Shown here: piece by piece, positions 1,746 to 45,786 of the stretch
Numbering within the stretch: position 1 is the stretch's first letter
Layout: each line of letters begins with the position of its first letter
NCBI RefSeq assembly: GCF_000092645.1
Contig: NC_014165.1
Location: 2,046,001-2,110,000 of the forward strand
Reading direction: 5' to 3'
DNA length: 64,000 nt
From: Thermobispora bispora DSM 43833
GTDB taxonomy: Bacteria > Actinomycetota > Actinomycetes > Streptosporangiales > Streptosporangiaceae
Position numbers and translations under genes: made by a program
Notes under the pieces: generated by a model
Seen by the model: only the letters and a program-made list of their open reading frames with translations
Databases searched by the model: none
What the model was told of the DNA's origin: nothing

Positions 1746-2432
1746 TCATGTGCGGTCGCGCACCAGCCCGTGCCGCATGGCGATCACGGCCGCCTGGGTC
1801 CGGTTGGGGCAGTTCAGCTTGAGCAGGATGTTGCCCACCAGGCGCTTGGCGCCGTGCACCGAGATGTAGAGGCGCTGGGCGATCTCCTTGTTGCTCAGCC
1901 CGTCGGCGAGCAGCTGCAGGGCCTCCCGCTCCCGGGCGGACAGCTCCACGTACCGGGGATGGGTGCCCCTGCGCAGCATGCGGTCGGCGGAGTCGAACAG
2001 CTCCGCGACGATCTGCGACGGCATCGGCGTCTCGCTGCGCGCGACCCGGATCAGGGCGTCCTCCAGCACGTGCCGGTTGAGCTCGCGCTGGAGGATGAAA
2101 CCATCGGGGCGGAGGGACAGGAGTTTTTCGATGTCCTTTGCGGTGACGTCGTCGACGAAGGCGAGGACGCGGACGTTCGCGGCCCGTGCGGCGGGCACGA
2201 CGCGCTGCGCGGTATCCCACTCGGCGTAGGAGACGATGACGATTCCGACAGAGCGGAGGACCGCCGCGTCGAAATCGGCGCCGGCCGGGATTTCCTGCAC
2301 CCGGCGGACCGTGTCGAGGTCGTTCAGCGCAGCCCGGAGCCCGTAGCGCAGGATCTCGTTCTCGCAGGCGATGCCCACGTCGAGCGGGATGACCAGAGGG
2401 TTGACCGTTGTACTGTTGCTCGGCCCTTCCAC
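1746..2432 (-). CDS. LuxR-type regulator with a degenerate (pseudo-)receiver domain
   Basis: A 228-residue protein. Residues about 160-220 form a clear LuxR/NarL helix-turn-helix (LSAREREALQLLADGLSNKEIAQRLYIS). Residues about 18-130 have the length and hydrophobic strand pattern of a receiver domain. The acidic pair is replaced by CEN, and the strand that should end in the phospho-accepting Asp reads VIVSYAEW, so phosphorylation by a histidine kinase is unlikely. The GTG start follows GGGAGGGG. The first 60 bp are tandemly repeated just upstream (see 2375-2503). No target gene is evident; neighbours on the same strand are an MHS transporter and, beyond an AT-rich gap, an envelope glycosylation operon. 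Confidence 0.8.
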   Translation of the reverse strand: MEGPSNSTTVNPLVIPLDVGIACENEILRYGLRAALNDLDTVRRVQEIPAGADFDAAVLRSVGIVIVSYAEWDTAQRVVPAARAANVRVLAFVDDVTAKDIEKLLSLRPDGFILQRELNRHVLEDALIRVARSETPMPSQIVAELFDSADRMLRRGTHPRYVELSAREREALQLLADGLSNKEIAQRLYISVHGAKRLVGNILLKLNCPNRTQAAVIAMRHGLVRDRT

Positions 2433-2865: not shown

Positions 2866-4044
2866 TCAGGCCGCCTCCTCCCGCCCGGCCAACGCCGGCG
2901 GCGCCCCCGGGCCGGATCGGGCGCCCGGACGTGCCCCGAGCGAGCGGAACAGCCGCTCATAGGAGTCCAGGCAGGCCTCCAGGCTGAACAGGGACCGCGC
3001 CGCCGCGGCACCGGCCGCCCGCTCCTCCGCGGAAAGGCCGCGCAGCTCCCGGATCGCCCGCAGGATCGCGCCCGGGTCCCGGGGCGGGATCACCCGGCCG
3101 AAACCGGTGGCCACCACCGGGAACCGGCCGCCCGGGATGTCGGTCGTGATCGACGGGATGCCCGCCATCATCGCCTCCGCCTGCACGATCCCGAACGACT
3201 CCGAGATCGAAGGGAGGGCGAACACGTCGATCGAGGCGTAGAAGTCCCGCATCTGCCCGTCGTTCAGCAGGCCGAGCAGCCGCACCCGCGCGTCGTCGCC
3301 GATCGCCCGCCGGACCCGCGCGATGTCGCTGCCCCCGGCCACGTTCACGTAGTCGCCCGCCAGCAGCAGCCGGGCGTCCGGCTCCGGCAGCCGCCGGAAC
3401 GCCTCGATCAGGTACACCAGCCCCTTCTCGGCCGCGATCCGCCCGGCGAAGCCGACGTGCAGCCCACCGGTCTCCCGGTACGACGGGCTGCCGCCCGCCC
3501 GGTCGTAACACGGCGCCGGGATGGCGTGCACGTTCGCCCGGCGCAGGGTCGGCCACAGCCGCGAGTACCGGGCCTGATCGTCGCTGTTCACCACCACCGC
3601 GGCCGAGTTGCGCATGGACATGCGCGCCGAGGCGTCCACCGCGCCGATCACCACCGGGCTGATCAGGCTCCGGCGCAGCCACAGGTCGATGTGGTACGTC
3701 GTCACCACCGGGGTCGGCGCGCACATCCGGGCGATCGGCCCCGCCTCCAGCATCGGGATGTGCAGGTTCGCCACCGCGGACATCCGGGCCACCCGGGCGG
3801 CGACGAACGGCAGCGACGGGCTGACCGGCCCCCGGCTGATCGTCGTCACCACCGGGCAGCGGAAGATCTCCACACCCGCCCGGCGCTCCCGCAACGGCAG
3901 GGACTTCAGGTGCTGCGACGCCACCACCGCCACCCGCCAGCCCCGCCCCGCCAGGCCCTCGGCGATCGCCCGCGCCGACTCGGTCAGCCCGCTGACGTAC
4001 GGGGAGTAGTAGTTGAGGATCACGGCGAGATCGAACTCAGGCAT
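2866..4044 (-). CDS. GT4-type glycosyltransferase
   Basis: A 392-residue retaining glycosyltransferase of the GT-B fold. The N-terminal domain begins MPEFDLAVILNYYSPYVSG, typical of the acceptor-side Rossmann fold. The C-terminal domain has GRIAAEKGLVYLIEAF near residue 210 and the nucleotide-sugar signature SISESFGIVQAEAMMAGIP near 300, with the usual E-x7-E pair. I chose the ATG at 4044 rather than upstream possibilities because GGGGG precedes it and homologues start here. It is the last gene of the leftward operon beginning at 7614, after the UbiA-type gene with a 166 bp gap. It probably adds a sugar to a lipid-linked glycan at the inner membrane face; donor and acceptor are unknown. Confidence 0.85.
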   Translation of the reverse strand: MPEFDLAVILNYYSPYVSGLTESARAIAEGLAGRGWRVAVVASQHLKSLPLRERRAGVEIFRCPVVTTISRGPVSPSLPFVAARVARMSAVANLHIPMLEAGPIARMCAPTPVVTTYHIDLWLRRSLISPVVIGAVDASARMSMRNSAAVVVNSDDQARYSRLWPTLRRANVHAIPAPCYDRAGGSPSYRETGGLHVGFAGRIAAEKGLVYLIEAFRRLPEPDARLLLAGDYVNVAGGSDIARVRRAIGDDARVRLLGLLNDGQMRDFYASIDVFALPSISESFGIVQAEAMMAGIPSITTDIPGGRFPVVATGFGRVIPPRDPGAILRAIRELRGLSAEERAAGAAAARSLFSLEACLDSYERLFRSLGARPGARSGPGAPPALAGREEAA

Positions 4045-4210
4045 GAAACGCCCCCATATCTCGTGATTGGTCGTCTTCTCCGGAACCAGGGCCGCGCAGC
4101 CCCGCCCGCACAGGCATCCCGGCCGCGCCCCCGACCCGGCCCGCCGACCGGCGATCGACGCCGCTCCGGCGCGGTACGGCACGCCTCACCCCGGCCGGGC
4201 CGGGGCCACG

Positions 4211-5149
4211 TCACCACCCCGACAGCAGATCGAGCCCGGCCAGCACCGCGGCCAGCCCGGCCGCGAGCACCGCAGTCACCACGATCACCCGGTCGCGCAG
4301 CAACGCCCGGGCCGGGTCACCGCCCACCCCGCGCACCGCCAGGAGCTGCATGTACCGGAACAGGCCGAACACCCCCAGCGGCGCCAGGGACAGCAGCGCG
4401 GCACCGCGGGGCGACACCGCGGCCGTGTCCTGGCTCAGGAACAGCAGGAACACCACCGCGGTCAGCCCCGCGCACACCGTGATCATCTGGTCGACCAGGC
4501 CCGGCGAATACCCCGCCAGCGACGGCCGATGCGCCGCCCCCGCCTCGTCCAGCTCCCGGCGCCGCTTCCCCAAGATCAAGGTCAGGCAGAGGAAGAACAC
4601 GCACAGCAGCAGCCAGGGGGACGGCACCGCCTCCACCGCCAGGAACCCCGCGACGATCCGCGCCTCGAACCCGAGCACCACCACGAACAAATCGACCAGC
4701 GGCACGTGCTTCAGCCAGGCGCTGTACAGCACGTTCAGCAGCAGGTAACCCCCGACCGGCCACGCCAGCCGCGGCGACACCACCGCGACCGTGACCGCGA
4801 GCACCGCCAGCAGCCCCACCCCGACGGCCACCGCCGCCCGCACGGACACCCGGCCCGCCGCGATCGGCCGGTGCCGCTTGACCGGGTGGCGCCGGTCCCG
4901 CTCCCGGTCCGCGATGTCGTTGCCCACGTACACCACGGACGACGCCAGGATGAACACCGCCACCGCGGCGGCCAGCCGGCCCAGCGCCGGCGGCGACCAC
5001 GCCGCCGGGTCCACCAGCGCGAGCGGCACCACCAGCAGGCTCTTCACCCACTGGTGCGGCCGCAGCAGCGCCAGCAGGTCACGGGGCGACCCCCGCTGCC
5101 CGGGCACGGGCCGCGCGGCCGCCGGCAGATCCAGGGAAGTGCCGGACAC
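4211..5149 (-). CDS. UbiA-family prenyltransferase, decaprenyl-phosphate phosphoribosyltransferase-like
   Basis: A 312-residue membrane protein with about eight to nine hydrophobic segments. Near residue 30 it reads LRPHQWVKSLLV. The first aspartate-rich motif, around residues 77-97, reads NDIADRERDRRHPVK then RHRPIA, the form seen in decaprenyl-phosphate 5-phosphoribosyltransferases (Rv3806c type) rather than in quinone prenyltransferases. The second polar loop reads LGKRRRELDEAG. Known members transfer phosphoribose from PRPP to a polyprenyl phosphate, the entry to lipid-linked pentose donors. The GTG start follows GGTGGGAGG, 15 bp after the epimerase gene. The operon setting suggests a polyprenyl-linked pentose or aminopentose for envelope glycans (inference). 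Confidence 0.82.
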   Translation of the reverse strand: MSGTSLDLPAAARPVPGQRGSPRDLLALLRPHQWVKSLLVVPLALVDPAAWSPPALGRLAAAVAVFILASSVVYVGNDIADRERDRRHPVKRHRPIAAGRVSVRAAVAVGVGLLAVLAVTVAVVSPRLAWPVGGYLLLNVLYSAWLKHVPLVDLFVVVLGFEARIVAGFLAVEAVPSPWLLLCVFFLCLTLILGKRRRELDEAGAAHRPSLAGYSPGLVDQMITVCAGLTAVVFLLFLSQDTAAVSPRGAALLSLAPLGVFGLFRYMQLLAVRGVGGDPARALLRDRVIVVTAVLAAGLAAVLAGLDLLSGW

Positions 5150-5164
5150 CCTCCCACCTCCGGG

Positions 5165-6214
5165 TCAGAAGAACACCTTCGAGAGGGCCAGCACGCCCTG
5201 CTTCCACGGCTCGCTGCTCGTCCGGCCGGCGCCCCGCCCGGCCGCCGACCCGCGGTTGCGCCGCCACCACTCGAACGTGGCGAGGATGGCGTCCCGGTTG
5301 GACTGCCTGGGGGAGAACCTCAGCCGCTCCCGCGCCTTGTCGATGCTCACGTACGAGTCGTAGAGCAGCTTGTACACCAGCCGGCCGTACACCGGGGAGA
5401 GCTTCAAGCGCTCCAGCAGCCGCAGCACGCTCACCGCCGGCCGGGCCGGGATCGACACCACCCGCTTGCCGTGCCCGGCCGCGTCCAGCACGGCCTGGAA
5501 GTCCTCCCGCAGCGTGCCGAACTCCGCCGCGCCCACGTTGTACGTGTCACAGGCCACCTCGTCCGGCGCCCGGAGCATGGTCACGACCGCGTCGACCAGG
5601 TCGTCCAGCCCGAGCATCTGGATGCGCACGTCGCCCCGGCCCAGCACCGGGAAGTTGCGCCCCTCCTCGGCCCACTCGAACAGCATCGAGAACAGCCCCA
5701 TCCGGCCCGGGCCGAGGAACGTCTTCGGCCGCAGCACGCCCACGCACATCCCATCGGCGCGGAACCGCTCGACCAGCTCCTCCGCCTCCGCCTTCGCCGC
5801 GCTGTAGGTGTCCACCGGCTCCCTGGGGTGCTCCTCGGTCGGCACCGTCCGCGGCAGGCCGTACACCGCGGTGGAGGACACGTGCACCACCCGGGCCACC
5901 CCGGCGGCCCGCGCCGCCCGCAGCACCGAGCCCGTGCCCGCGACGATGATCGAGCGGATCTGCTCGGCCGGGTAGCTCGGCAGCGCCGAGGCGCAGTGCA
6001 CCACCGCGTCCGCACCGGCGAACGCCTCCGTCATCGCGGCCGTGTCCCGGATGTCGGCCACCCGCCCGGTCAGGCCGGGCGCGGGCGGCAGCTCCCGCAC
6101 GTCCACCCCGCACACCCGGTGGCCGTCCCGCAGCAGCCGCGCCACCAGGTTCGAACCGAGAATCCCCGCCGCGCCGGTCACCACGATCCGCGCGGGCGCC
6201 CCTCCCGTCACCAC
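5165..6214 (-). CDS. NAD(P)-dependent sugar epimerase/dehydratase (extended SDR)
   Basis: A 349-residue extended short-chain dehydrogenase. The dinucleotide-binding motif TGAAGILGSNL is at residues about 13-23. VVHCASALP follows the fourth strand, and the catalytic set is SS..VYG with YSAAK near residue 140. A C-terminal substrate domain follows. These enzymes act on nucleotide sugars or other keto/hydroxy substrates. The gene overlaps the end of the aminotransferase gene by 7 bp, implying translational coupling. The start is uncertain: GTG at 6214 is annotated, but a GTG a few codons downstream (before VTGAAG) is possible. Confidence 0.82.
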   Translation of the reverse strand: MVTGGAPARIVVTGAAGILGSNLVARLLRDGHRVCGVDVRELPPAPGLTGRVADIRDTAAMTEAFAGADAVVHCASALPSYPAEQIRSIIVAGTGSVLRAARAAGVARVVHVSSTAVYGLPRTVPTEEHPREPVDTYSAAKAEAEELVERFRADGMCVGVLRPKTFLGPGRMGLFSMLFEWAEEGRNFPVLGRGDVRIQMLGLDDLVDAVVTMLRAPDEVACDTYNVGAAEFGTLREDFQAVLDAAGHGKRVVSIPARPAVSVLRLLERLKLSPVYGRLVYKLLYDSYVSIDKARERLRFSPRQSNRDAILATFEWWRRNRGSAAGRGAGRTSSEPWKQGVLALSKVFF

Positions 6215-7614
6215 AGCGAGCTCACCCGCTCACGGATGAACCGGGTCAGCAGGCGGGGCATGCCCTGCGCGAGCACCGCGTCCAGCGCGTCCAGCACCCG
6301 CTCCATCTCCTCCGGCTCGGCGACCAGCGGCGGGCCGATCACCATCGGGCTGCGCCCGTTCAGCGTGTAGTAGGCGTAGATGTCGTGGTCGCGGTAGAGC
6401 GCGTCGATCACCGCGCAGGCCACCAGCTTCGGCCGGAGCTGCGGATCCCGCAGCGGCGACAGCTTGCCGGCCAGGTCGAGCAGCCGGGGACCGCCGGAGA
6501 GGAACACCCCCCACAGCGCGCCGCACCCGCGCACGTCCGCGATCTCATCCGGGTACTTCTTCTGCAGCCGCTCCAGCCCTGGCCCCAGCACCCGCTCCAG
6601 GGCCCGCGCCCGCGCCGGGTAGTCGTCCTCGATGGCGATGTTGATCGCCTCGATCGCGGTCGCCGTCTCCTCGCCGAACCCGTAGTACGTGGTGCTGGTG
6701 CTCTGCACCATCGCGTCGGCCAGGTTGTCGTACGCCTTCCGGAAGATCGGCTCCCGGGCGATGTACGCCGAGATGGACGACTTGCCGCCACCGAACGACT
6801 TCGACGTGGTCAGCACGTCCGGCACCAGGCCGGGGTAGCGCATGAAGTAGAACAGGCTCCCGGTCTTGCCCCACCCCGTGTAGATCTCGTCGAAGATCAG
6901 GACGATGTCCTCTTCGGTGCACAGCTCCCGCACGCCCCGGAGGAACTCCTCCGAGCACCACTGCATCGTCGACGCGCTGAACGGCTCGACGATCAGCGCG
7001 TACACGTCCTTCCGGTGCGCGCGCACCGCCGCGCGCACCGAGTCCAGGTCGTCGTAGCGGAAGGTGACGATCCCCGGGATCGTCGGGTAGGAGAAGCGGT
7101 GCTGCGCGCTCCCGGTGAGCCCGCCGGACCCCAGGAGCTTGCCGTGGAAGCTGATGTCCGCCCGCAGGATCGTGTTCCGCCGGCCGCCGTGGTACTTGTA
7201 CGCCAGCTTGACCGCGTTCTCGACCGCCTCCGCCCCCGAGTTGGGGAGGAACGACCGCGTCAGGTCACCCGGCAGCACCTGGGCGAGGTTGTGCCCGAGA
7301 GCCGCCAGGTAGGGGGAGAAGTACGTCTTGTGCACCTCCATCCGGCGCCGCTCCTGGAACCGCATGCGCGCCGCCAGGATGCGCGGGTGGTTGTGGCCGT
7401 GGTTGAGCACGCCGACGCCACCGGTGATGTCGAGCACCTTGCGCCCGTCCCGCAGGTACAGGTACGCCCCCTCGGCGTGGTCGACCAGCTCCCAGCCGAA
7501 GCCGAACGACGTCATGAGCGTCACCTGGCTGCGGTTGATGTACCGCCGGTACATCTCGTGGACCTGGCCGACGTCGAGCTCCTCGGCCTGCTGCACGGAC
7601 AAGAGTTCGGGCAT
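6208..7614 (-). CDS. Class III PLP-dependent aminotransferase
   Basis: A 468-residue fold-type I enzyme. Visible landmarks are NSGAEAVENAVKLAYKYHG near residue 125, the PLP-binding aspartate in IFDEIYTGWGKTG near 240, and the Schiff-base lysine in TTSKSFGGGKSS near 270. The length matches acetylornithine/4-aminobutyrate/glutamate-semialdehyde aminotransferase relatives, but the substrate cannot be assigned. The ATG is preceded by AGAGGAG. It is the first gene of the leftward operon (aminotransferase, epimerase, UbiA type, GT4). A structured leader candidate lies 144 bp upstream (7758-7924). In this context it could aminate a sugar or small precursor for a surface glycolipid (inference). Confidence 0.85.
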   Translation of the reverse strand: MPELLSVQQAEELDVGQVHEMYRRYINRSQVTLMTSFGFGWELVDHAEGAYLYLRDGRKVLDITGGVGVLNHGHNHPRILAARMRFQERRRMEVHKTYFSPYLAALGHNLAQVLPGDLTRSFLPNSGAEAVENAVKLAYKYHGGRRNTILRADISFHGKLLGSGGLTGSAQHRFSYPTIPGIVTFRYDDLDSVRAAVRAHRKDVYALIVEPFSASTMQWCSEEFLRGVRELCTEEDIVLIFDEIYTGWGKTGSLFYFMRYPGLVPDVLTTSKSFGGGKSSISAYIAREPIFRKAYDNLADAMVQSTSTTYYGFGEETATAIEAINIAIEDDYPARARALERVLGPGLERLQKKYPDEIADVRGCGALWGVFLSGGPRLLDLAGKLSPLRDPQLRPKLVACAVIDALYRDHDIYAYYTLNGRSPMVIGPPLVAEPEEMERVLDALDAVLAQGMPRLLTRFIRERVSSLW

Positions 7615-7757
7615 GTGGGCTCCTCTCGTGTCGTGCCGTCCCGGCCCCGGCCGTCCCGGGGCGCCGGGGTGGTACGGCCATGCGAGGCGATCCGCCGGGA
7701 TCGACCGGCCGTTCCGGCCGCGGGCCCGCCCGGCGGAGCGCGGGGTGCCCTGGCGCA

Positions 7758-7924
7758 GCGCCCGCCCGGCCGCGAATGGCCAGGTCAGCGCGGGTCACGC
7801 CGTCCTCCGGGCACCCGCCTCAGGATCACCGACGGGTACGGCGGCGCGACAGCCGCTGAAGATCGCTCTATCGAGCGGTGCCGTGGGCTACGGCGAGCCG
7901 CCCGGACGGGCTGCCCATCCGGTC
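7758..7924 (-). ncRNA. Candidate structured leader RNA, copy 1
   Basis: About 165 bp align at roughly 85% identity with 12262-12427, including an identical 49 bp core (7820-7868). Four successive hairpins are present: 7902-7910 with 7914-7922 (9 bp), 7880-7884 with 7890-7894, 7864-7868 with 7873-7877 (loop TATC), and 7841-7845 with 7852-7856. All stems are kept in the second copy while loops differ. The 9 bp stem has one difference that is a G-U pair on the minus strand but a C-A mismatch on the plus strand, so minus-strand transcription fits better. It lies upstream of the aminotransferase operon. A paired DNA operator array is the alternative. Confidence 0.55.
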
Positions 7925-8073
7925 ACTTGACACGGCCCGGACGCGGGCGTTTCCGCGGGCCGCGGGCTGCGGACCCGCGTGGGGAGAGCGGAGACGTGAG
8001 CTTCATCTGCCGGCCCGCGCGCGGCCGGCCGCCGGCGGGACCGGTTCCGGGCCGGTGCGCGGGTCCGGATAAC

Positions 8074-8107
8074 GGAAAAGCCCCGCTGGAGCGACTCCAG
8101 CGAGGCT
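8074..8107 (-). terminator. Rho-independent terminator of the flippase operon
   Basis: Read leftward, an 8 bp perfect stem (8084-8091 with 8095-8102, loop CGA), extended by AGCC/GGCT across one mismatch, is followed by TTTT at 8079-8076. It lies 310 bp after the stop of the flippase gene and separates that operon from the aminotransferase operon. Confidence 0.75.
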
Positions 8108-8416
8108 CTCTCACCGAACGGACGAGGGCTTGCTTCCGGGCACCGGCGAAGCCCGGCTGACCAAGCGGGACCGGGCCGGAGCAGGACCGGCATGTGTTGC
8201 GGTCCTGCGCAAGGCACGGCACGGGGAACGGCACCCGGCAACGCCCACCGGCGGCCGCGCGGTGCCGACACGTCACCGGACCGGCCCATGGTGGGCTCCC
8301 GGCAAACAGGCCACCACCTCGGCCCGCCGGGCCACGGGGCCACCATTCCCCGGGCCGGGGAGGCGTGGCCGTACCGCAGCGATGCCGTGGGCGACCGCCG
8401 ATCGGGAGTCAGCGTG

Positions 8417-9748
8417 TCAGCCGCGCGCCTGCTCGGGCGCCCGCGCCCGGTGCCCGGCGCCGGCCATCGCGCGCCGGATCACCGCCAGGAACCACCACAC
8501 CAGGGCGATGTTGAGGACCGCGAACGCGGCGATCATGCCGGGGACGCCGCCCGCCACGGCACCGGCGGCCTGTACGGCCAGGCCGGGCAGGAACGCCACC
8601 GCCAGCGCGGCCCGGGCCGGGGCCAGGCCGAGCGACGGCTGCACGGTGAGCACGCAGAACAGCACGATCACCAGCGCGTGCGCGGCACAGCCGGCGGCGG
8701 CGAGCACCGCCCACCCCGGCACCAGCCGGTCGAGCGCCCCGGCAGCGGCCAAACCCACCACGACCAGCGCGAAGGCCCCCAGCCCGGCCAGGCCGAGGAA
8801 CCACGGGGCGTACCGCAGCACCACCCGGCCGCCCGCCGACGATCGACCTTTGGCGAGCGCGGCGATCAGCAACGAGGCGAGCGAGTCGGTGAACAGGATG
8901 CCGATCACCCGGCGGCAGCTCCCTATATATAAGGCGTAGAGCCCGACCGCGGCCGGGCCGCTCGCCCGCATCAGCAGGATCACGTCGAACCCGAAGAGCA
9001 GGGTGAGCAACGACTGGCCCGTGCTGTACACCCACCCCTCACGCAGCAACGTCCGGGCGAGCCCACCGTCCCAGCCGAAAACCCGTCCCCCTCGAGCCGG
9101 AGGTCCGGCCGATGCACCCCCGAGCGCCCGGCGCAGCCCGGCGAGCATGAGCACCGCGCACGCGGCGTTGGCGACGGTGAGCAGGGCCGCGTACCGGGCC
9201 GCGTCCCCGCGCCTGGCGGCCAGGAGGGCGGCCACCGCGACCAGGTACCCCCCGGCGCAGCCCAGCCGCAGCCCGGAGGCGAGCACCTGGCGGCCGCGGA
9301 TCCGCAGCAGCGACTCGGCCAGGGTCATGACCGTGGCCGAGACCCCGAGCCCGGCCGCGCACCCCAGCCCGTCCGCGGCGGCGACCGGAAGCACGCCCCG
9401 GGCCAGTGTCAGCAGCCCAGCGAACGCGGCCGACGTCAGCAGGCACGCCGCGGCGACCACGGCCAGCGCGGTCCCGGCCACCACCCCGGCGTCTGCCCGG
9501 GCGGCCATCGCCCGGCTGGCGTTGACGTGCACCCCCCACAGCATCGGGATGCCGAGGATCACGCCGACCGCCTGCAGGGTCACCAGCGTCCCGAACGCGT
9601 CGAACCCGTCGAACCGGGCGATCGCCAGGCTCGCGACCGTCATGAGCACACTCGCGGCCGCGGACATCAGCGCCGGGGACCAGGAGCGGACCTTGGCGCC
9701 GAGGCCGCCGGCGCGGGCGAGGCCCGCCGGTGGGCCGGTCCGGCTCAC
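8417..9748 (-). CDS. Polysaccharide/lipid-linked oligosaccharide flippase (MOP superfamily, Wzx-like)
   Basis: A 443-residue protein almost entirely made of hydrophobic segments (about 12 to 14), with short charged loops such as LLREGWVYSTGQSLLTLLFGFDVILL near residue 240. The arrangement matches O-antigen/teichoic-acid type flippases of the MOP superfamily, which move undecaprenyl-linked sugars across the membrane. The GTG start at 9748 overlaps the stop of the upstream glycosyltransferase as GTGA, so translation is coupled. The frame is also open far upstream, but that part is out of register with the real glycosyltransferase gene. The substrate is presumably the product of the neighbouring glycosyltransferases. 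Confidence 0.75.
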   Translation of the reverse strand: MSRTGPPAGLARAGGLGAKVRSWSPALMSAAASVLMTVASLAIARFDGFDAFGTLVTLQAVGVILGIPMLWGVHVNASRAMAARADAGVVAGTALAVVAAACLLTSAAFAGLLTLARGVLPVAAADGLGCAAGLGVSATVMTLAESLLRIRGRQVLASGLRLGCAGGYLVAVAALLAARRGDAARYAALLTVANAACAVLMLAGLRRALGGASAGPPARGGRVFGWDGGLARTLLREGWVYSTGQSLLTLLFGFDVILLMRASGPAAVGLYALYIGSCRRVIGILFTDSLASLLIAALAKGRSSAGGRVVLRYAPWFLGLAGLGAFALVVVGLAAAGALDRLVPGWAVLAAAGCAAHALVIVLFCVLTVQPSLGLAPARAALAVAFLPGLAVQAAGAVAGGVPGMIAAFAVLNIALVWWFLAVIRRAMAGAGHRARAPEQARG

Positions 9749-11043
9749 CGGCCGACCGCCTCGCCGTACGCCTTCAGCGTGCGGGCGGCCGCCGCCTCCC
9801 AGGAGTGGTGCTCGCGGACGTACCGGCGGGCCCGGGCGCCCAGCTCCGGATCGTCGTCGCTCACCGCCCGGGCCAGCGCGGCCGCCAGCTCGCCGGGATC
9901 CATGGTCGCGATGCGCAGGCACGCCCCCTCGGCGCCGCCGACCACGCCCTCGTCGAATCCCGGCCCGACCACCGTGCGCGCGCCCAGCGCCATCGCCTCC
10001 AGGGCGACGAAGCCGAACGGCTCGTACGCCGACGGGAACGCGCACGCGTCGGCCGCCACCAGGTGGTCCCGCAGCTCGTCCGTGTCCAGGAACCGGCAGA
10101 GCAGGTGCACCCGCTCGCCCAGCCCCAGCCCGGCCACCTGCTCGCGCAGCCGGTCGTTCAGCGACAGGTCCGGCCATCCGGTGCCCGCGGCCACCGCGGC
10201 GACGTCCAGGCCGTCGTCCACCAGCCGCTTGACCGCGTCGATCAGCTCGGCCACCCCCTTGTGCGGGGCGTACCGGCCCGCGAACACGATCAGCCGCCGC
10301 CCGTCCGGGATCCCGTACATCGACCGGATCTTGTCCCGGATGACGGCGCGTTCCGCGTCGTCCGGGCAGGCCATCCGCCACGCCTTCCCGGCGCCGTGCG
10401 AGACCACCACCACATCGCCGCGGCCGGCCAGGTGCGGGACCGCGGCCACGGTGCCGTACGACGGAACCATGATCAGCCGGGCCCGCCGGCTCAGCGCCCG
10501 GTTCAGCGCGCGCCCGAGCAGCGCGACCAGGCCCCGGCTCCCGGCGCCGAGGAAGGTCTCGGCCGAGTGGACGTGGTAGCAGACCGGGATCCGCAGCAGC
10601 ATGGCGCAGGCCAGCCCGGCCGGCGCGCACATCCAGTCGTGCACCGCGACCAGATCGACCCGCGCCCGGGCGTGCAACCGCCAGGCGTACCAGACGCCCG
10701 CGAGGTTGAGCCGGGCGAACTCGGCCACCATGCCGAGGAACCAGCGGGGCCGCGCCGCGCGCGCCCAGGGCCGGGTGGCGAGCACCCGGCGCACGGTCAC
10801 CGCCCCGTACCGCGACACCCGGGGCAGGTGGCGGTGCCGGGACGTGCCGACCAGATGGACATCGGCGTTCTGGGACGCCATGGCGCCGAGCAGCCCTTCG
10901 AGGTACGTGCCGATCCCGCCGTACGGGTCGGGCGGGGCGTCGGGGGAGACCATGACGACCCGCAGGCCGCCCGGCTCATGGGCACGCCCCCGGCGCGGCC
11001 GCCGGGCGTCACCGTCACCGTGAATTCGTCGGGGCTTGCGCAC
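9745..11043 (-). CDS. GT4-type glycosyltransferase
   Basis: A GT-B glycosyltransferase of up to 432 residues. The N-terminal domain begins VVMVSPDAPPDPYGGIGTYL with the glycine-rich acceptor loop. VFAGRYAPHKGVAELIDAV near residue 245 opens the C-terminal domain, and SAYEPFGFVALEAMALGA near 340 is the donor-sugar signature with the E-x7-E pair. The annotated GTG start overlaps the preceding EEP gene by 29 bp. The first 28 residues are basic and unconserved-looking, and an internal ATG before VSPDAPP is an alternative start. It is the middle gene of the operon EEP, GT4, flippase, so it likely builds the lipid-linked glycan exported by the flippase. Confidence 0.84.
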   Translation of the reverse strand: MRKPRRIHGDGDARRPRRGRAHEPGGLRVVMVSPDAPPDPYGGIGTYLEGLLGAMASQNADVHLVGTSRHRHLPRVSRYGAVTVRRVLATRPWARAARPRWFLGMVAEFARLNLAGVWYAWRLHARARVDLVAVHDWMCAPAGLACAMLLRIPVCYHVHSAETFLGAGSRGLVALLGRALNRALSRRARLIMVPSYGTVAAVPHLAGRGDVVVVSHGAGKAWRMACPDDAERAVIRDKIRSMYGIPDGRRLIVFAGRYAPHKGVAELIDAVKRLVDDGLDVAAVAAGTGWPDLSLNDRLREQVAGLGLGERVHLLCRFLDTDELRDHLVAADACAFPSAYEPFGFVALEAMALGARTVVGPGFDEGVVGGAEGACLRIATMDPGELAAALARAVSDDDPELGARARRYVREHHSWEAAAARTLKAYGEAVGR

Positions 11044-12223
11044 GATGCGTCCCTTCCGTCGTGTGGGGTGTGGCGGAGTGCGCGGCGGGCGCCTCGTCGG
11101 CGACGGCGATGCGGAACTCCTGGGCCTGGTGGTCGGAGTACGGCGCGCCGCCGGTGAAGCGGTAACCGGAGACGGTCAGGCCCGGGCTGGTGAACAGCCA
11201 GTCGAGGCGCCACACCCGGGGGAACGGGTACTCGGAGACCGGCCACGAGGCGACGGGCAGCACGGAGCCCGCCGGGGTGTGCAGCCGGGTGCCCCCGCCG
11301 AGCGGGGCGACCTCCATCCAGGCGGAGTTGAAGTCGCCGGCCACCACGACCGGGTTGCGGTTGGCGGCCAGGTCCGCGCGGAGCTTGCTCAGCTCACCGT
11401 TGCGCCACGCCCACCGCTCCGCGAGCTCCCGGTAGAACCGGCCGCTCAACGGGTCATCGCCGATCCGGAACGGCACCGGCAGGTGCACGTTGTAGAAGGA
11501 GACCGTGCGCCCGCCCACCCGGATGTCGGTGCGCTGGGCCTTGCCGCCCTTCCAATACCAGTCCGCTCCCGTCTCCGGGACCGCGTGGTCCGCGGCGACG
11601 ACCGGCAGCCGGGTGAGGGTGAGCAGCTCGCCCTGGACGAGGACCCGGTAGCCGGGGAACTCCGCGCGCAACCGGGCCGAGTCGTCGATCCGGACCGGCC
11701 GGTCGCCGTCCCAGTACAGGTACTCCTGCAGGAGGTAGACGTCCGCGTCCTGGTGGCGCAAGAACGCATAGAACGCGTCCTTGTCGTCGGACATGTCCCA
11801 GTAGTTGGTGTTCCAGGCGAAGACCTTGATCGTCGTCCCCGCCGGGCCACCGGCGGTGGGCGTCGCCGTCCACCCGCGGCCGAAACCGGCCAGGTATGCC
11901 CCGGCCAGCAGCAGGACGACCAGGACCACGGAGAGCCGGCGCCGGACCGGCCTGGCGAGCGGCGTGACGACGAGCAGCAGCAGCGGCACCGCCACCATGG
12001 TCAGCGGCGGCGCGACCTCGAAGATCAGCCACGGCCACCAGCGGTCCACGAGCAGGACGTGCAGGACGAGCACGATCGCCCAGACCGCAGTGGCCGCCAC
12101 CACGAGCCGGGTCCCCAGGCACCAGCGGCGCCTCACCGGTCCGGGCCGCTGCTCATCCTGAGCCGTGCCGTCGCGGGTCGCGAGCGGTGATGCTCCGTCC
12201 TCCGTTGCTTGTGTCGTGGTCAT
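11015..12223 (-). CDS. Membrane-anchored endonuclease/exonuclease/phosphatase (EEP) family protein
   Basis: A 402-residue protein. Three hydrophobic segments lie at residues about 38-110, followed by an extracytoplasmic EEP domain. Landmarks are KVFAWNTNYWD, LLQEY (metal-binding Glu), NVHLPVPF, VVAGDFNSAWM (Asp/Asn pair) and a C-terminal SDHQ. Family members cut phosphodiester or phosphomonoester bonds in nucleic acids or lipids. With three membrane spans and an outside domain it more likely acts on a phospholipid or glycolipid phosphate than on DNA (inference). The ATG follows GGGAG. It heads the operon with GT4 and flippase, and a second copy of the leader candidate lies immediately upstream. 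Confidence 0.82.
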   Translation of the reverse strand: MTTTQATEDGASPLATRDGTAQDEQRPGPVRRRWCLGTRLVVAATAVWAIVLVLHVLLVDRWWPWLIFEVAPPLTMVAVPLLLLVVTPLARPVRRRLSVVLVVLLLAGAYLAGFGRGWTATPTAGGPAGTTIKVFAWNTNYWDMSDDKDAFYAFLRHQDADVYLLQEYLYWDGDRPVRIDDSARLRAEFPGYRVLVQGELLTLTRLPVVAADHAVPETGADWYWKGGKAQRTDIRVGGRTVSFYNVHLPVPFRIGDDPLSGRFYRELAERWAWRNGELSKLRADLAANRNPVVVAGDFNSAWMEVAPLGGGTRLHTPAGSVLPVASWPVSEYPFPRVWRLDWLFTSPGLTVSGYRFTGGAPYSDHQAQEFRIAVADEAPAAHSATPHTTEGTHRAQAPTNSR

Positions 12224-13590
12224 GTCAGGCGGCTCCCACAGGGCTCCGTCGCGCCGGTCCCGCGCCCGCCCGGCGCCGAACGGCCAGGTCAGCGCGGGTG
12301 CGCTCTCTTCCGGGCACGTGCTTCAGGATCACCGACGGGTACGGCGGCGCGACAGCCGCTGAAGATCGCTCCATGGAGCGGTGCCGTGGGGCACGGCGGA
12401 CCGCCCGGATGGGCAGCCCATCCGGTTCGCACAGATGTTCGAATTCGGGCCGGAGTGTGGGGGAGACGTCAGGGGAGCGGCGGATGCGCGCGTCCCGCCG
12501 TGGCGCGGGGAGAACCGGCCCCGTCTCGCCGCCTCGGCCGGTGCCAGGGACGGCCGGCCCGGCACGGGGCCGGCCGGGAGCCGGTCCGGATCCGGCGGCG
12601 CACCGCGACACGCCCGGCACGCCCGCGCACGGTCCCGCCGGCACGCGGGCGACGCGGGCATGGCTCGGCCCGGCGGGACGTCGACCGGCCTCGACGCCGT
12701 ACGTCAGCGCATGCCATGGGAACCACCGGCCGGCCCGCGAGGCTGTGCCGAGCACACGGCGGAGGCACGGCGGACGCCGGAAGCTCGGCGAGGAGGACGG
12801 GCGTGGAAAGGCGGCACTTCACGGTGCGCCGGGGCTCAGGGCTCTCCATGCTGTCGAGGTAAGGCCTGGTACGGATCGCGGAGCGGCCCGGGCCGAGGGG
12901 AGGGACGGGCACCGGCCTCAGGACTCAACTTGACATAATGTTCGTTATCGAGCATCAGTGAGAAGTGGTCTCCGTGGCCTTGAAAGGGCTCTGGGTGCGC
13001 TGTGCGCGCACTGGGACGGCGTACGGCGAAGGCGCGCGGCGGTGTGACCGCCGCGCGCAGGCCGGGACCGCGGGCCGGCGCGACGACGGATGCGCAGCCG
13101 GGACCGTTTACGTGAACGCCGTGTCGATCACGAAGCCGATCACGAAACCGATGTGTTCGGGGAGCCTGCGTTGCGACCGGCACGCGAAACCGGCTCGCGG
13201 TGCTCCCGCCGAACACCGCGCAGGGCTCCGCGTACGGCGCATCGAACTTGGCAGGCGAAGTCCTTTGTCGTGATCAGGCATGCCCGCTGTGCGCCATCGT
13301 GCCGGCCGCACGGCCGGCGCCGATCGCCGGTACGGCGGCGTGACGGCGTCGCGGCCGCGGGCCGAACACCGTCGGCGAACACCCGCCCGAGCCGGATACC
13401 CGGCCGCGTGCGTGATCTCGATACCGGCCGATCGTTATCGATCTTCATCCCATGATCATCAGTACCGCGTCCGGCTCCGAGTGCCCGCGCCGGAGAGGCT
13501 CTGCTGGACGCGGTGCAGTGCTCGCGCAGGGCATGACCCTGCATTTCTGTCGCAAGTCAACAAAATCCAGCTATGACCAGAAAAGAACAG
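12224..13590. other. Gene-poor region
   Basis: Bases 12262-12427 hold the second leader copy. Bases 12430-12925 are GC-rich with open frames in several directions, none showing recognisable protein features. At 12930 TTGACA is followed by the palindrome TCGTTATCGA (12942-12951), which recurs at 13432-13441. A 12 bp tandem repeat (GATCACGAAGCC, then GATCACGAAACC) is at 13126-13149. From 13440 the sequence becomes AT-rich towards the dyad upstream of the recombinase gene. No gene could be supported. Confidence 0.5.
12262..12427 (-). ncRNA. Candidate structured leader RNA, copy 2
   Basis: Diverged copy of 7758-7924 with the same four hairpins: 12405-12413 with 12417-12425 (perfect 9 bp, loop of 3), 12383-12388 with 12392-12397, 12367-12371 with 12376-12380 (loop CATG instead of TATC), and 12344-12348 with 12355-12359. 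The 49 bp identical core is 12323-12371. It ends 39 bp before the EEP start codon, so it would form the 5' leader of the EEP-GT4-flippase mRNA. No known riboswitch family is recognised. Confidence 0.55.
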
Positions 13591-13653
13591 CTATACCGAA
13601 CAGAAGACTCATTCTGTTCGGTATAGGGCTACTTCTGTTCAGCACAGGGCTAC
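13591..13653. promoter_or_regulatory. 15 bp perfect dyad plus 21 bp direct repeats upstream of the recombinase gene
   Basis: CTATACCGAACAGAA (13591-13605) and its exact reverse complement (13612-13626) flank a 6 bp loop. TTCTGTTC-n5-AGGGCTAC then occurs twice in direct tandem (13612-13632 and 13633-13653). GAACAG/CTGTTC occurs four times: 13585-13590, 13599-13604, 13614-13619 and 13635-13640. The block is AT-rich in a GC-rich genome and ends about 50 bp before the recombinase start. It may be a recombination core with arm sites or an autoregulatory operator. Confidence 0.75.
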
Positions 13654-13701: not shown

Positions 13702-14796
13702 ATGATCCCCCCGCAGGTGATCCGGTTGACCGTGCAGGAGGCAGCCGACCGGTACATCGAATTGGTCCGGGCCAAGGCCGTGACCGGAACCCTGTCCCCC
13801 GCCACCGCCGAGGTGTACGCCCGGGACGTCGCCACGTTCGCCCGCCTCGCCGGCCCTGACCGGGTGCTCGACGACCTGACCGGTGAGGACGTGGACGCGG
13901 TACTGCTCGCTTTCGCCCGCAAACCGGACGAGCGCCGCAAGAACCCCTCCTCCCCCGGCCGGCCGGACGAGGGCCGGCAGAGCCCGGCGTCACAGCTCAG
14001 GTTCCGCCGGTCGATCTCGGGGCTGTTCCAGCACGCGGTGTCGGCGGGCTGGGTGCAGATGAACCCCATGGAGGTGTCGTCGGTGATGCCCCGGGAGCGG
14101 GGCGGGTTGCCGCCGAAGCGGCGGGCGCTCACCCGGGAGCAGGCCGAGGGCCTGATCGCGGCGGCCCGTTCGGCCGCCGCCTCCCCCGACTCGGCCACCT
14201 CGAAGCGGAAGGACCAGCGGACCGAGGTGCGCGACGCGCTCATCGTGCTCCTGCTCACCACCGTGGGACCCCGGGTGTCGGAGCTGGTCCGGGCCAACGT
14301 CGAGGACTTCTACACCAACAACGGGATCCGGTACTGGCGGATCTTCGGCAAGGGCGGCAAGACCCGGGACGTGCCGCTCCCCCGCGAGGTCGCCGAGGCG
14401 CTCGACGCGTACCTCGCCGTCCGCAAGGGCGGGGACGAGAAGGCGCTGCTGCTGTCGTGGCGCGGCCGGAGGCTGGCCCGGGGTGACGTCCAGGCGGTGA
14501 TCGACCGGGTGCTGCGGCGGGTGGAGCCGGAGCGCCGGCGCAGCGTGACCCCGCACGGGCTGCGGCACACGACCGCGACGCACCTGCTTGCCGACGGCAC
14601 GGACATGGACGCGGTGCGCCGGGTGCTGGGCCACGGTGACCTGTCGACGCTCGGCCGTTACCGGGACGAGCTGCCCGGCGAGCTGGAGGCGGCGATGCGC
14701 GTCCACCCCCTGCTGCGCGGCACGCCCCCAGCTGGGACCGGGAACGGCGAGCGGCCGGCCCGGCAGGCGGACCCGGCATCCGAGCCGGCCGGGTGA
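13702..14796 (+). CDS. Tyrosine recombinase/integrase
   Basis: A 364-residue site-specific recombinase. Residues about 10-130 form the SAM-like core-binding domain. The catalytic domain shows Arg191 in VGPRVSEL, a beta-hairpin lysine in GKGGKTRDVPL (about 217-220), His285 and Arg288 in PHGLRHTTATHLL, His311 in LGHGDL and the putative nucleophile Tyr320 in GRYRDE. The set is complete, so an active enzyme is expected. The ATG lies 7-9 nt after a TACGGT hexamer, suggesting a leaderless transcript. There is no excisionase, phage gene or tRNA nearby. The dyad and repeats just upstream may be its binding site. Confidence 0.88.
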   Translation: MIPPQVIRLTVQEAADRYIELVRAKAVTGTLSPATAEVYARDVATFARLAGPDRVLDDLTGEDVDAVLLAFARKPDERRKNPSSPGRPDEGRQSPASQLRFRRSISGLFQHAVSAGWVQMNPMEVSSVMPRERGGLPPKRRALTREQAEGLIAAARSAAASPDSATSKRKDQRTEVRDALIVLLLTTVGPRVSELVRANVEDFYTNNGIRYWRIFGKGGKTRDVPLPREVAEALDAYLAVRKGGDEKALLLSWRGRRLARGDVQAVIDRVLRRVEPERRRSVTPHGLRHTTATHLLADGTDMDAVRRVLGHGDLSTLGRYRDELPGELEAAMRVHPLLRGTPPAGTGNGERPARQADPASEPAG

Positions 14797-14927
14797 CACC
14801 CGCCCGGGTGCCGTACCCCGCCGAAACCCGGCCGCCGGGTCCCGGCCCAGGCGGCGCTCCGGCCGAGCGGGGCCGCCCGGGGCGGGCCCGTGCCGGACCG
14901 GCCGCGCCCAGGCATACGATCGGTGCC

Positions 14928-15656
14928 ATGAAGGTGGCCGTACTGTCGGGGGCCGGGATCTCCACCGCGTCCGGTATCCCGGATTTCCGGGGGCCGAACG
15001 GCCTATGGCGGAAGTTCCCGGATTACGAGAAGCTCGTCACCTACGACTACTACATGAGCGACCCTGAGATCCGGCGCCGCTCATGGCTGTTCCGCAGTGA
15101 GAACCCGGCCTGGACCGCGGAGCCGAACGCGGGCCACCGTGCGCTCGTCGACCTCGCCAACGCCGGCGTGGACGTGTGGATCATCACCCAGAACGTGGAC
15201 CGCCTCCACCAGCGGGCCGGGTCGCCTCCGGATCGGGTGCTCGAGCTGCACGGCAACATGTTCGAGACGGTGTGCACCCAGTGCGGCGCCCGCTCGACGA
15301 CCCGTGAGGCGATCGACCGGGTGCACGCCGGGGAGAGCGACCCCAGGTGCCGGAAGTGCGGCGGGATCCTGAAGACCGCCACCGTGATGTTCGGGGAGTT
15401 CCTCGACCAGCACGTCCTGGAGCAGGCGGTCAAGGTGTCCCGGGAGTGCGACGTGTTCATCGCGGTGGGCACCTCGCTCCAGGTGCACCCCGCCGCGTCG
15501 CTGGTGCAGTACGCCGTCGCCTCCGGCGCCCGGCTGATCATCGTGAACGCCGAGCCCACGCCCTACGACGACCTGGCCGACGAGGTGATCCGCGAGCCGA
15601 TCAGTGAGGCCCTCCCCCGGCTGGTCGCCCGCCTCACCTCAGGCGAGCGGAGCTAG
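14928..15656 (+). CDS. cobB: NAD-dependent protein deacylase, Sir2 family
   Basis: A 242-residue sirtuin of bacterial length. Motifs in order are GAGISTASGIPDFRG (residues 7-21), TQNVDRLHQRAG, LHGN with the catalytic His, two Cys pairs for structural zinc (CTQC and CRKC), VMFGE, GTSLQVHPAA and IVNAEPTPYD. It would remove acetyl or other acyl groups from lysines using NAD. The start is the ATG in GCCATGAAGGTGGCC, 12 nt after TACGAT; upstream in-frame sequence is not protein-like. It follows the recombinase gene in the same direction after 131 bp and is followed by a strong hairpin. The symbol denotes family only. Confidence 0.9.
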   Translation: MKVAVLSGAGISTASGIPDFRGPNGLWRKFPDYEKLVTYDYYMSDPEIRRRSWLFRSENPAWTAEPNAGHRALVDLANAGVDVWIITQNVDRLHQRAGSPPDRVLELHGNMFETVCTQCGARSTTREAIDRVHAGESDPRCRKCGGILKTATVMFGEFLDQHVLEQAVKVSRECDVFIAVGTSLQVHPAASLVQYAVASGARLIIVNAEPTPYDDLADEVIREPISEALPRLVARLTSGERS

Positions 15657-43506: not shown

Positions 43507-44395
43507 GGGACTGATCTCTCCTTGTGAGTCTGCCGGTGCCGGCACACCCGGACCGCCGCGCGCGGGCGGGCCACGGGGGTGCCGGGCGGATGCCACTCTA
43601 CGGCCGGTACGGCTCTCGCCCACGCCGGCCTGCGCGGACGGCTCCGCGGCCGTGGGGGGCGTGCCCGTGCGGGAGCTCACCCGGATGCGGTGGCATCCGT
43701 CTCAGGAGCCGTGAGAAGGGGGGCCCGGACGGCCCTTCGGACCGGATCCGTCCCGCGGGCGGCGAGCTCGGGGCTCCGTTGTCTACTGGGTATCCGGACC
43801 CCTCCCGGGTCCAACCCCCGCCGGTTGGGCACCCCGTTCCGGCGGACCACCGGGCTGCGCCTGGCAGTGCGCACGGAGTCACTCTCCGTCACGGACGCAG
43901 GCCCCGGCGACGCCAGGAAACGGCCAACCGGTCAGTCCCGTGCTGGACTGCGCAGCAAACTACCGAGCTCAGCTCAGATGTCAACCATGCCCCGATCACG
44001 AGAAATACCAAGTTCCTGCAGCTCCTACAGGCTTCGCGAGCCGCCACAGGGGTGCCCGTCCCGGCGAAACCGAAAAATCATGCGATCAATCGTTATGAGC
44101 ATGCGATCAGGGCGCGGCGCTTTGGCCGGTGAACCACCGGCAGCGCTCCAGAGGCCTCCCGAGCCAAGTGAAGACATGGGCAGGGTCAGCACGACCTAGA
44201 GGCGGCCTCTCCCCCTGGCCATGTGATCTTGCCGTTGTGTGCCGGCTCTGCGCGCATGTGAACTGATCATGATCAAGCGTGCTGAGCCGCCAGGCGCGCA
44301 CCCGGCCGCAGCCGGCGACCGACCCAGCACCGTTCCAGGCCATCATGCGAGCGCGGTGACATGCCTCTTGGCCAGGAGTCCGGCTCTCTTGATCC
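43507..44395. other. Gene-free region
   Basis: No gene is supported. The first 250 bp are GC-rich lnt leader. Bases 43940-44400 are clearly less GC-rich, like the lipoprotein genes that follow, and contain short open frames in both directions without recognisable features. Composition suggests it belongs to the same acquired segment. Confidence 0.45.
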
Positions 44396-44914
44396 TCAAT
44401 GTGCGACACGAACGTCGAGTTCGGAGGACGGGGAAGGCTCAGGTGTCCCATGAGGCCAAATACAAGGGGACGTCGCCCCGATGCCAAGGACGTCGCCGGC
44501 CGTCCAGGACAGAGAGAGGATGAAACCATCAGGCCGGGAACGCGCGGCGATATTCATTCCGTCTTTGGAAATCCCTTCGATGACGTGTCCCTGTTGTTGC
44601 CAATGACGTCTCACCTTTTGGGAAATTTCAAGCAGTTTCGTCTTATCCCTGGGGATACCACGCAGCCAATAGGCTCGGCTGATGTATATGCGGCCGTCCC
44701 AGTCATCCCCGACGAACCCGATACAGCGGTAAGGGGTCAGGGTGGTTGGGTCGACGTCAAGCCGCGGCCTCGGCTCGATGATGGCGACCGTATCGTTGAT
44801 CAGCTCCTCCACACGGGCGAGCGCCTCGTCTTTTGTCATGGTCGGCTCCACACGTCCTCCCGTGCAGCCTGCGGTCATGACCGTTAAAGCGATCACGGCG
44901 ATAATGCGAAGCAT
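44396..44914 (-). CDS. Lipoprotein, paralogue 1 of 3
   Basis: A 172-residue predicted lipoprotein. The signal MLRIIAVIALTVMTAGC ends in a lipobox with Cys17. The mature part begins near EPTMTKDEALARVEELIND and has two conserved Cys (CIGF near residue 64; CIWP near 151). Bases 44661-44781 are identical to 45441-45561 of paralogue 2, although the ends of the two genes differ. The 20 or so bases before the ATG match the 3' end of the hydrolase gene (…CAGCCGGGGGATGA), a duplication scar. The family is unknown to me. Probable immunity-like partner of the hydrolase at 46291-48087 (inference). Confidence 0.75.
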   Translation of the reverse strand: MLRIIAVIALTVMTAGCTGGRVEPTMTKDEALARVEELINDTVAIIEPRPRLDVDPTTLTPYRCIGFVGDDWDGRIYISRAYWLRGIPRDKTKLLEISQKVRRHWQQQGHVIEGISKDGMNIAARSRPDGFILSLSWTAGDVLGIGATSPCIWPHGTPEPSPSSELDVRVAH

Positions 44915-45772: not shown

Positions 45773-45786
45773 CGCTCGCCCCATGG

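Follow-up and report, generated by a model that had tools for sequence, protein, structure and literature searches.

Why do two leftward operons of Thermobispora bispora, a thermophilic compost bacterium of biosafety level 1, each lie behind nearly the same block of intergenic DNA, and what could such a block do? The two blocks, c1 and c2, were found in the 64,000-nt stretch that was analysed as a whole (hereafter the window), and their position relative to the surrounding genes is given in Table 1.

Table 1 Features of the two blocks and their surroundings (positions within the window)
Feature	Position	Strand	Remarks
Leader copy 1 (c1)	7758-7923	-	143 nt upstream of aminotransferase start codon (7614); 89% identity to c2
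Leader copy 2 (c2)	12262-12426	-	38 nt upstream of EEP start codon (12223)
49-nt core of c1	7820-7868	-	exact match in c2
49-nt core of c2	12323-12371	-	
Hairpin/palindrome A of c1	7902-7922	.	10-bp arms, 1-nt centre, one DNA-level mismatch (U-G in minus-strand RNA)
Palindrome A of c2	12405-12425	.	10-bp arms, perfect
Predicted multibranch junction of c1	7840-7902	-	closing stem; hairpins B 7880-7894, C 7864-7877, D 7846-7856; RNAalifold consensus
Predicted multibranch junction of c2	12343-12405	-	hairpins B 12383-12397, C 12367-12380, D 12349-12359; RNAalifold consensus
Predicted 3' domain of c1	7757-7815	-	outer stem, hairpin E 7787-7801, hairpin F 7765-7784; differs from c1 minimum-energy fold
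Predicted 3' domain of c2	12261-12318	-	outer stem, hairpin E 12291-12304, hairpin F 12269-12288; differs from c2 minimum-energy fold
Class-III aminotransferase	6208-7614	-	PF00202; first gene behind c1
NAD-dependent epimerase/dehydratase	5165-6214	-	PF01370
UbiA prenyltransferase	4211-5149	-	closest: decaprenyl-phosphate phosphoribosyltransferase, under NCBIfam cut-offs
GT4 glycosyltransferase, first operon	2866-4182	-	
EEP-family (endonuclease/exonuclease/phosphatase) protein	11015-12223	-	PF03372; first gene behind c2
GT4 glycosyltransferase, second operon	9745-11043	-	
443-aa protein, candidate flippase	8417-9748	-	hydrophobic stretches by eye
Intrinsic-terminator-like hairpin, then TTTT	8079-8107	-	between second operon and c1; scan gave 8080-8092 stem part, longer stem by eye
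LuxR-type gene	1746-2432		downstream of first operon
XerC/D-like tyrosine recombinase gene	13702-14796	rightward	1.3 kb from c2

Two copies of one block, each before an operon

In the minus-strand alignment, c1 and c2 differ by 18 substitutions and one 1-nt gap (BLAST: 89% identity, E 2.1e-55); the 167-column stretch used in the structure tests includes one additional mismatched column and so has 19 substitutions and one gap. An initial annotation of this DNA had reported two related copies with an exact 49-bp core, and the alignment confirms both points. BLAST and a model search of the 4,189,976-bp genome returned c1 and c2 as the only copies, the model giving beyond them weak matches at E 1.2 to 6.1. 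When the window was cut into 167-nt segments (n = 397), 10 had a second within-window match of at least 100 bits, two of them from c1 and c2 and eight from another repeat region, at 44.4-46.7 kb. At 40 bits or more, 46 of the 397 segments had a second match in the window, some of these being true paralogues, and a supposed third copy at 50902-50927 (a 25-nt match upstream of an acyl-CoA dehydrogenase gene) is therefore probably due to chance. It has 15 exact bases in common with both blocks, and an exact 14-mer inside it occurs at three genomic places only (c1, c2 and 50902-50927), with 17 places at up to one mismatch compared with 10 for the reversed control.

The block ends are abrupt and the flanks unrelated in sequence. 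No similarity was found between the flanks of c1 and c2 in 40-nt anchored comparisons at the two boundaries (500/500 and 407/500 shuffles scored equally high), and a GC-rich 43-nt patch farther upstream outscored most shuffles (11/500) in one of four local comparisons. The differences between the copies follow no codon pattern (hand count). Upstream open reading frames were rejected; by eye, the 1-nt gap and altered stop codons give the candidate frames different lengths in c1 and c2.

Both blocks have the same orientation, and each precedes the leading gene of what looks like an operon. Family matches recovered aminotransferase-epimerase-UbiA-GT4 behind c1 and EEP-GT4 behind c2, as the annotation had placed them; the 443-aa protein that follows, a flippase in the annotation, has no match in Pfam, NCBIfam or PDB sequences and is at most a flippase candidate, and it is the family names that suggest an envelope pathway. 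Since c2 lies in a divergent gap, between the leftward EEP gene and the rightward recombinase gene with no convincing ORF between, it is not the 3'-end structure of any recognised gene. Were c1 transcribed on the plus strand, the RNA would continue into the second operon as antisense. A simple scan of both leaders found neither a sigma-70-type promoter match nor a U-tract attenuator, and in neither case does the interval from block to start codon contain a terminator-like site (Rho-dependent sites are outside the scan's coverage).

The direct repeats bracket exactly one apparent operon close to the XerC/D-like gene, and they might be recombination sites used by this enzyme to excise, insert or duplicate the EEP operon. 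We consider this very improbable: the recombinase gene lies outside 7758-12426, the genes between the repeats being those for EEP, GT4 and the 443-aa protein, the window contains no tRNA gene, the recombinase falls under the cut-off of all 11 matching NCBIfam models, integron integrases included, and several unlike hairpins across 166 nt do not make a simple att core. The blocks also do not look like a MITE or other dispersed repeat, with two genomic copies only and block ends that are not inverted repeats (by eye).

Predicted folds and the question of strand

The annotation had described hairpins whose stems are kept in both copies. This stands insofar as all 50 pairs of the minus-strand RNAalifold consensus are standard in c1 and c2 (four changed on one side, one on both), but the minimum-energy folds of c1 and c2 taken alone are unlike in the 3' half, and the predicted hairpin set is therefore model-dependent. 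The c1 minus-strand fold is stabler than 300/300 dinucleotide shuffles (z -3.0); that of c2 alone is unremarkable, 53/300 shuffles folding equally well. In both copies the hairpin F loop region includes UUCG, with no canonical closing pair (by eye). A conserved switch, in which the core would pair alternatively with the leader, was rejected as unsupported: an 11-nt complement of the core lies 22 nt before the start codon in c2 (3/300 shuffles, one of four comparisons), and the remaining three comparisons are at chance (c1, 165/300 and 277/300; c2 within the block, 200/300).

The stem of the longest hairpin indeed differs by a single change, U-A versus U-G, from which it had been argued that a minus-strand RNA is transcribed. 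This argument is valid only within the chosen minus-strand structure, and it fails because the same tests do equally well or better on the plus strand. Compared with randomised copies, the structure conservation index gave 9/300 for the minus strand, 6/300 for the minus strand from c2 and 5/300 for the plus strand; the consensus energy gave 17/300 and 0/300 for minus and 3/300 for plus, and the covariation term 244/300 and 208/300 for minus and 15/300 for plus. The broken pairs test yielded 0.084 and 0.016 (minus) and 0.017 and 0.016 (plus), and changes at unpaired sites 0.156 and 0.383 (minus) and 0.002 and 0.010 (plus). Covariation in the two-copy consensus stood at 264/500, and two sequences cannot show covariation. 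Pairing is preserved somewhat beyond chance on both strands, and the plus strand is favoured by several measures.

Structure preserved on both strands is what is expected if the inverted repeats matter as DNA, that is, if the blocks are promoter-proximal inverted-repeat arrays bound by regulators in double-stranded form and the hairpins are operators. An odd-centred 21-bp palindrome is typical of operators that bind a dimeric regulator, and palindrome A is such a repeat, perfect in c2 and with one mismatch in c1. Six other genomic places come within three mismatches of it, compared with two for the reversed control pattern, and downstream of the first operon there is a LuxR-type gene. However, the half-sites of the palindromes differ, so that no single regulator would bind them all; outside c1 and c2, palindrome A has no match with fewer than three mismatches; and the identical 49-nt core does not form a single palindrome and is longer than operators usually are. 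On balance, we regard control at the DNA level as somewhat unlikely.

Relatives and known leader systems

No homologue of the block was recognised in 340 other genomes of the family, in 393 other genomes of the class (the two sets overlap), in the public collections tried or around 32 aminotransferase homologues, and searches of open-licence papers brought up nothing recognisable as this element. A relaxed pattern scan gave 13 loci, none of them bearing an actinobacterial title and one labelled just 'uncultured bacterium'. Three weak matches in other genomes (L107, L108 and L109; E 2.6e-7, 4.8e-6 and 8.1e-6 per genome) were set aside: L107 overlaps a hairpin and the 3' end of the long ORF that precedes it, L108 lies within overlapping ORFs and L109 within an ORF. 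Likewise set aside were a 30.5-bit match inside a long ORF resembling a transporter permease (L052) and three matches coding or gene-end in appearance by eye (L004, L005 and L007). The genome with L107 (G028) has an aminotransferase homologue, on a different contig.

At 9 of the 12 mapped loci of relatives, an EEP gene lies in the same cluster and on the same strand as the aminotransferase gene, and in one relative (G020, contig 574) an EEP homologue is also directly upstream of an aminotransferase homologue; 3 of the 12 loci have no EEP gene. In T. bispora, EEP heads the second operon behind c2, its own genes following, with the terminator-like hairpin before c1. A 'split' of EEP from the cluster is not certain, because of the adjoining genes in G020 and the three loci without EEP.

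The lack of recognised homologues and the differing cluster arrangement both fit a passive origin, in which intergenic DNA was copied by segmental duplication or gene conversion as the cluster was rearranged, the copies being alike because they are young and having no common function. Structural conservation is only modest, and GC-rich DNA folds well regardless. Against this, the blocks have diverged by 11% and still end abruptly between unrelated flanks, so that the duplicated unit would have to be almost exactly the block, and both copies, equally oriented, directly precede a gene that opens an apparent operon. Such passive duplication is, in our judgement, quite unlikely.

Among known RNA families, the Rfam 15 covariance models gave no match above the gathering threshold in the window, and of the five sub-threshold matches in 7500-12800, none coincides with c1 or c2 on the minus strand. 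In Bacillus velezensis, a nearly identical RNA hairpin is reported in the 5' leaders of the dfn and mln operons, both controlled by LoaP, a NusG paralogue required together with leader terminators; the dfn element consists of a single small UNCG hairpin (PMC12691694). The likeness is that two operons of one bacterium have near-identical hairpin-bearing leaders, whereas T. bispora has one NusG-domain locus, no leader terminator by the simple scan and a 166-nt block instead of a small hairpin. LoaP/RfaH-type antitermination is unlikely, since the whole genome holds one PF02357 locus only (a paralogue too diverged for the PF02357 model would escape). The ops/JUMPstart element, a short common element of polysaccharide-operon leaders, works with RfaH; it differs in needing this NusG paralogue and in being far shorter. 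The EAR element of Bacillus eps operons is a structured exopolysaccharide leader RNA that acts without a NusG paralogue, but no Rfam family matches the T. bispora blocks on the minus strand. Orphan riboswitch candidates, such as those of computational surveys, also have a hairpin-junction leader before biosynthetic genes; unlike the present two copies in one genome, those are defined by cross-genome comparison.

Proposed shared control of two operons

The reading that we tentatively prefer, with somewhat less than even confidence, is that c1 and c2 are copies of one lineage-specific cis-regulatory leader giving two operons of one pathway common control. Shared control is best supported because there are two copies only, in the same orientation before the operons, and c2 lies in a divergent gap. 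Of the annotation's proposal of an undescribed cis-acting RNA or shared control element, the latter part thus holds up, while a minus-strand RNA is not established. The EEP gene may have split off, or been recruited anew, and a copy of the leader would then have been placed before it and retained because both operons need joint expression. Less surely, the element might act in the nascent minus-strand 5' UTR, which, with transcription beginning at the block edge, would measure ~203 nt in the case of c2 and ~309 nt in that of c1; its 5' hairpin and multibranch junction could alter elongation, stability or translation upon binding of a protein or a change of condition. In the models, the minus-strand pairing retained beyond randomised copies, the stable c1 fold and the fully standard consensus speak for a leader RNA, and the equal or better plus strand, the ordinary c2 fold and the differing folds of the copies speak against it; the absence of recognised homologues is unusual for a riboswitch and also counts against it, as do the missing sigma-70-type promoter match and U-tract attenuator in the scan.

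In its most specific form, which we hold to be unlikely, the leader would be a new 166-nt RNA class private to Thermobispora, composed of a 5' hairpin, a junction with an invariant 49-nt core and a variable 3' domain, and its duplication would keep two polyprenyl-linked glycan operons under one post-initiation control without a NusG paralogue.

The present evidence supports a shared element and not a mechanism. As a leader RNA, the element would exemplify co-regulation of two operons in one pathway through duplication of a control RNA, here in a high-GC thermophile, and to our knowledge few leader RNAs have been described in such organisms. As an operator array, it would point to a two-operon regulon. 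Under either reading, the two blocks would offer a simple two-reporter system.

Duplication and genomic setting of the block

The initial annotation had reported a duplicated hairpin-rich block, which is borne out by alignment, BLAST and an exact 49-nt core. On the minus strand the two copies, c1 and c2, differ by 18 substitutions and one single-base gap (89% identity, E 2.1e-55 by BLAST), with no codon pattern by hand count; the tests described below used a 167-column stretch, one mismatched column longer than the blocks. The similarity ends abruptly at the block edges. Anchored flanks of 40 nt showed no excess similarity (shuffles scored at least as high as observed in 500/500 cases upstream and 407/500 downstream). 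In one of four local comparisons, only 11/500 shuffles scored as high as a GC-rich 43-nt patch farther upstream.

Positions of the blocks and of other features in the window
Feature	Position	Strand	Remark
LuxR-type regulator gene (GerE domain)	1746-2432	as first operon	downstream of first operon
c1	7758-7923	minus	class-III aminotransferase start 143 nt downstream
Palindrome A (inverted repeat) in c1	7902-7922
Terminator-like hairpin with TTTT	8079-8107		between second operon and c1; part found by terminator scan
Core complement, 11 nt	12246-12256	minus	downstream of c2, 22 nt before EEP start codon
c2	12262-12426	minus	EEP-family gene 38 nt downstream
Palindrome A in c2	12405-12425
Terminator-like hairpin, 15 pairs	13591-13626		adjoins recombinase/Sir2 pair
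XerC/D-like tyrosine recombinase gene	13702-14796	plus
Recombinase gene, directly followed by Sir2-family gene	13702-15656	plus
Long direct repeats	44431-46696		244-nt and 215-nt families, each with three copies
25-nt match to c1	50902-50927	as c1	upstream of leftward acyl-CoA dehydrogenase gene

Judging from spacing, the genes behind each block probably form operons. Behind c1, the genes after the aminotransferase encode an epimerase, a UbiA-family protein (top NCBIfam models are decaprenyl-phosphate phosphoribosyltransferases, with scores under the cut-offs) and a GT4 glycosyltransferase. Behind c2, the EEP-family gene precedes genes for a GT4 glycosyltransferase and for a 443-aa protein; the latter had no match in Pfam, NCBIfam or PDB sequences, so that its label as a flippase is putative. 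c2 sits in a divergent gap of ~1.5 kb ahead of the recombinase gene, in which base composition indicated no convincing ORF.

In the whole genome of 4,189,976 bp, c1 and c2 are the only copies found by BLAST, the 25-nt match aside, and a covariance model built from both detected no third copy (next-best matches, E > 1). If it were a third, partial site, the 25-nt match would be of interest; it is probably due to chance, since equal-scoring matches are common (46/397 window segments). The long direct repeats are spaced by ~600-780 nt, share 68-91% identity with the reference copy and are accompanied by an 85-nt repeat pair (89%); TRF found no tandem array in that region, and no ORF of at least 200 aa lies wholly inside 44200-46290.

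Searches in other genomes

None of the searches that follow brought a recognised homologue. Rfam contained no family above threshold for c1 or c2. When 60 genomes (own included) were searched by BLAST with c1, four weak partial hits turned up outside the own genome; three of these resemble coding sequence or gene ends. With c2, the 345 genomes of the order contained three partial matches other than those in the own genome, of at most 67 query letters (per-genome E 2.6e-7, 4.8e-6 and 8.1e-6); these were read as chance similarity to GC-rich coding or gene-end DNA. Beyond the own genome, the covariance model yielded a single match among 341 family genomes, rejected as a homologue and lying within a long ORF, and nothing among 394 class genomes; both of these model searches, run on sets larger than 40 genomes, used stricter filters, and some genomes recur between the family, order and class sets. 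In public genome contigs one pattern gave zero loci and a relaxed one 13 (0/13 actinobacterial by title), one pattern gave zero loci in viral contigs, and the best E among plasmids and phages was 0.5, own-species records being possibly absent from all these collections.

Folding, strand and possible mechanisms

All 50 pairs of the minus-strand RNAalifold consensus can form as standard base pairs in c1 and in c2; between the copies, four pairs have one base changed and one pair has both. The shuffle control of RNAalifold (264/500) is uninformative with two sequences. Because the consensus had been picked from the same two sequences, it was set against artificial second copies in which the positions of the observed substitutions had been randomised (n = 300). 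The observed structure conservation index was reached by 9/300 copies on the minus strand, 6/300 on the minus strand starting from c2 and 5/300 on the plus strand, and the consensus energy by 17/300, 0/300 and 3/300, respectively. The covariation term, reached by 244/300, 208/300 and 15/300, favours the plus strand. Random placements broke as few pairs, by single-sequence pairing probabilities, in fractions of 0.084 and 0.016 (minus) and 0.017 and 0.016 (plus), and put changes at positions no less unpaired than the observed ones in fractions of 0.156 and 0.383 (minus) and 0.002 and 0.010 (plus). There is thus modest evidence that the inverted repeats are kept. Fold stability of the bare blocks gave z -3.0 (0/300) for c1 and -1.0 (53/300) for c2 on the minus strand, and -1.1 (42/300) and -1.4 (30/300) on the plus strand; longer minus-strand stretches gave z -1.8 (10/200) and -2.0 (4/200). 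The minimum-energy folds of c1 and c2 are unlike in the 3' half.

The initial annotation had read the hairpins as a minus-strand cis-acting RNA or shared control element. A shared control element is likely, while action as a minus-strand RNA is possible: nothing singles out that strand, the index and broken-pair tests being similar on the plus strand and the covariation and unpaired-site tests favouring the latter. On these last two grounds, leader readings were given less weight and control at the DNA level through the inverted repeats more, although we still consider the latter somewhat improbable. Palindrome A in c2, 21 bp long, is a perfect inverted repeat resembling an operator; outside the blocks, its closest matches in the genome have 3 mismatches, and there are six of these versus two for the reversed pattern.

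As for RNA, the known case most similar in working is that of the Bacillus velezensis dfn and mln leaders, which carry nearly the same small hairpin, recognised by LoaP (PMC12691694). The whole genome yielded a single NusG-domain locus, which makes it unlikely that a factor like LoaP or RfaH acts on c1 and c2. A simple scan revealed no U-tract attenuator in the leaders, so that an RNA, if it is one, would need another route, which might be Rho-dependent attenuation, translation, stability or an unknown antitermination. Behind c2, the core could pair with its complement before the start codon (3/300 shuffles; one of four comparisons); c1 lent such a switch no support. An undescribed leader RNA class private to Thermobispora, duplicated for post-initiation control without a NusG paralogue, seems unlikely.

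Aminotransferase loci in relatives

Aminotransferase homologues (E < 1e-150) occur in 40/341 family genomes, own included, at 42 places. Around 32 of the 41 non-own places the best E of the covariance model was 0.38; the remaining nine were covered by the whole-genome model search with stricter filters only. Twelve loci were mapped using the window's proteins, and nine have an EEP homologue on the strand of the aminotransferase gene (AMT). The order is AMT-Epim-EEP-GT4a (Epim, epimerase; GT4a, a GT4 glycosyltransferase) on contig 337 of relative G020, AMT-Epim-UbiA-EEP-GT4a in G363, and AMT-Epim-UbiA-GT4a, then EEP, in G358 and G208. EEP lies farther downstream on the aminotransferase strand in G250, G081, G033 and G028; G028 also carries a second EEP homologue in the opposite orientation. 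On contig 574 of G020, EEP immediately precedes the aminotransferase homologue. No EEP homologue was found in the stretch examined at the other three (G020 contig 74, G008 and G267). By eye, the G363 aminotransferase gene appears close behind another gene.

In T. bispora, EEP leads a separate gene set, behind c2. Inferred from this position, as against that at most mapped loci of relatives, a duplicated control element seems likelier than a passive repeat. Our best explanation, offered tentatively, is that c1 and c2 are a duplicated lineage-specific cis-regulatory leader, which would give the two operons common control.
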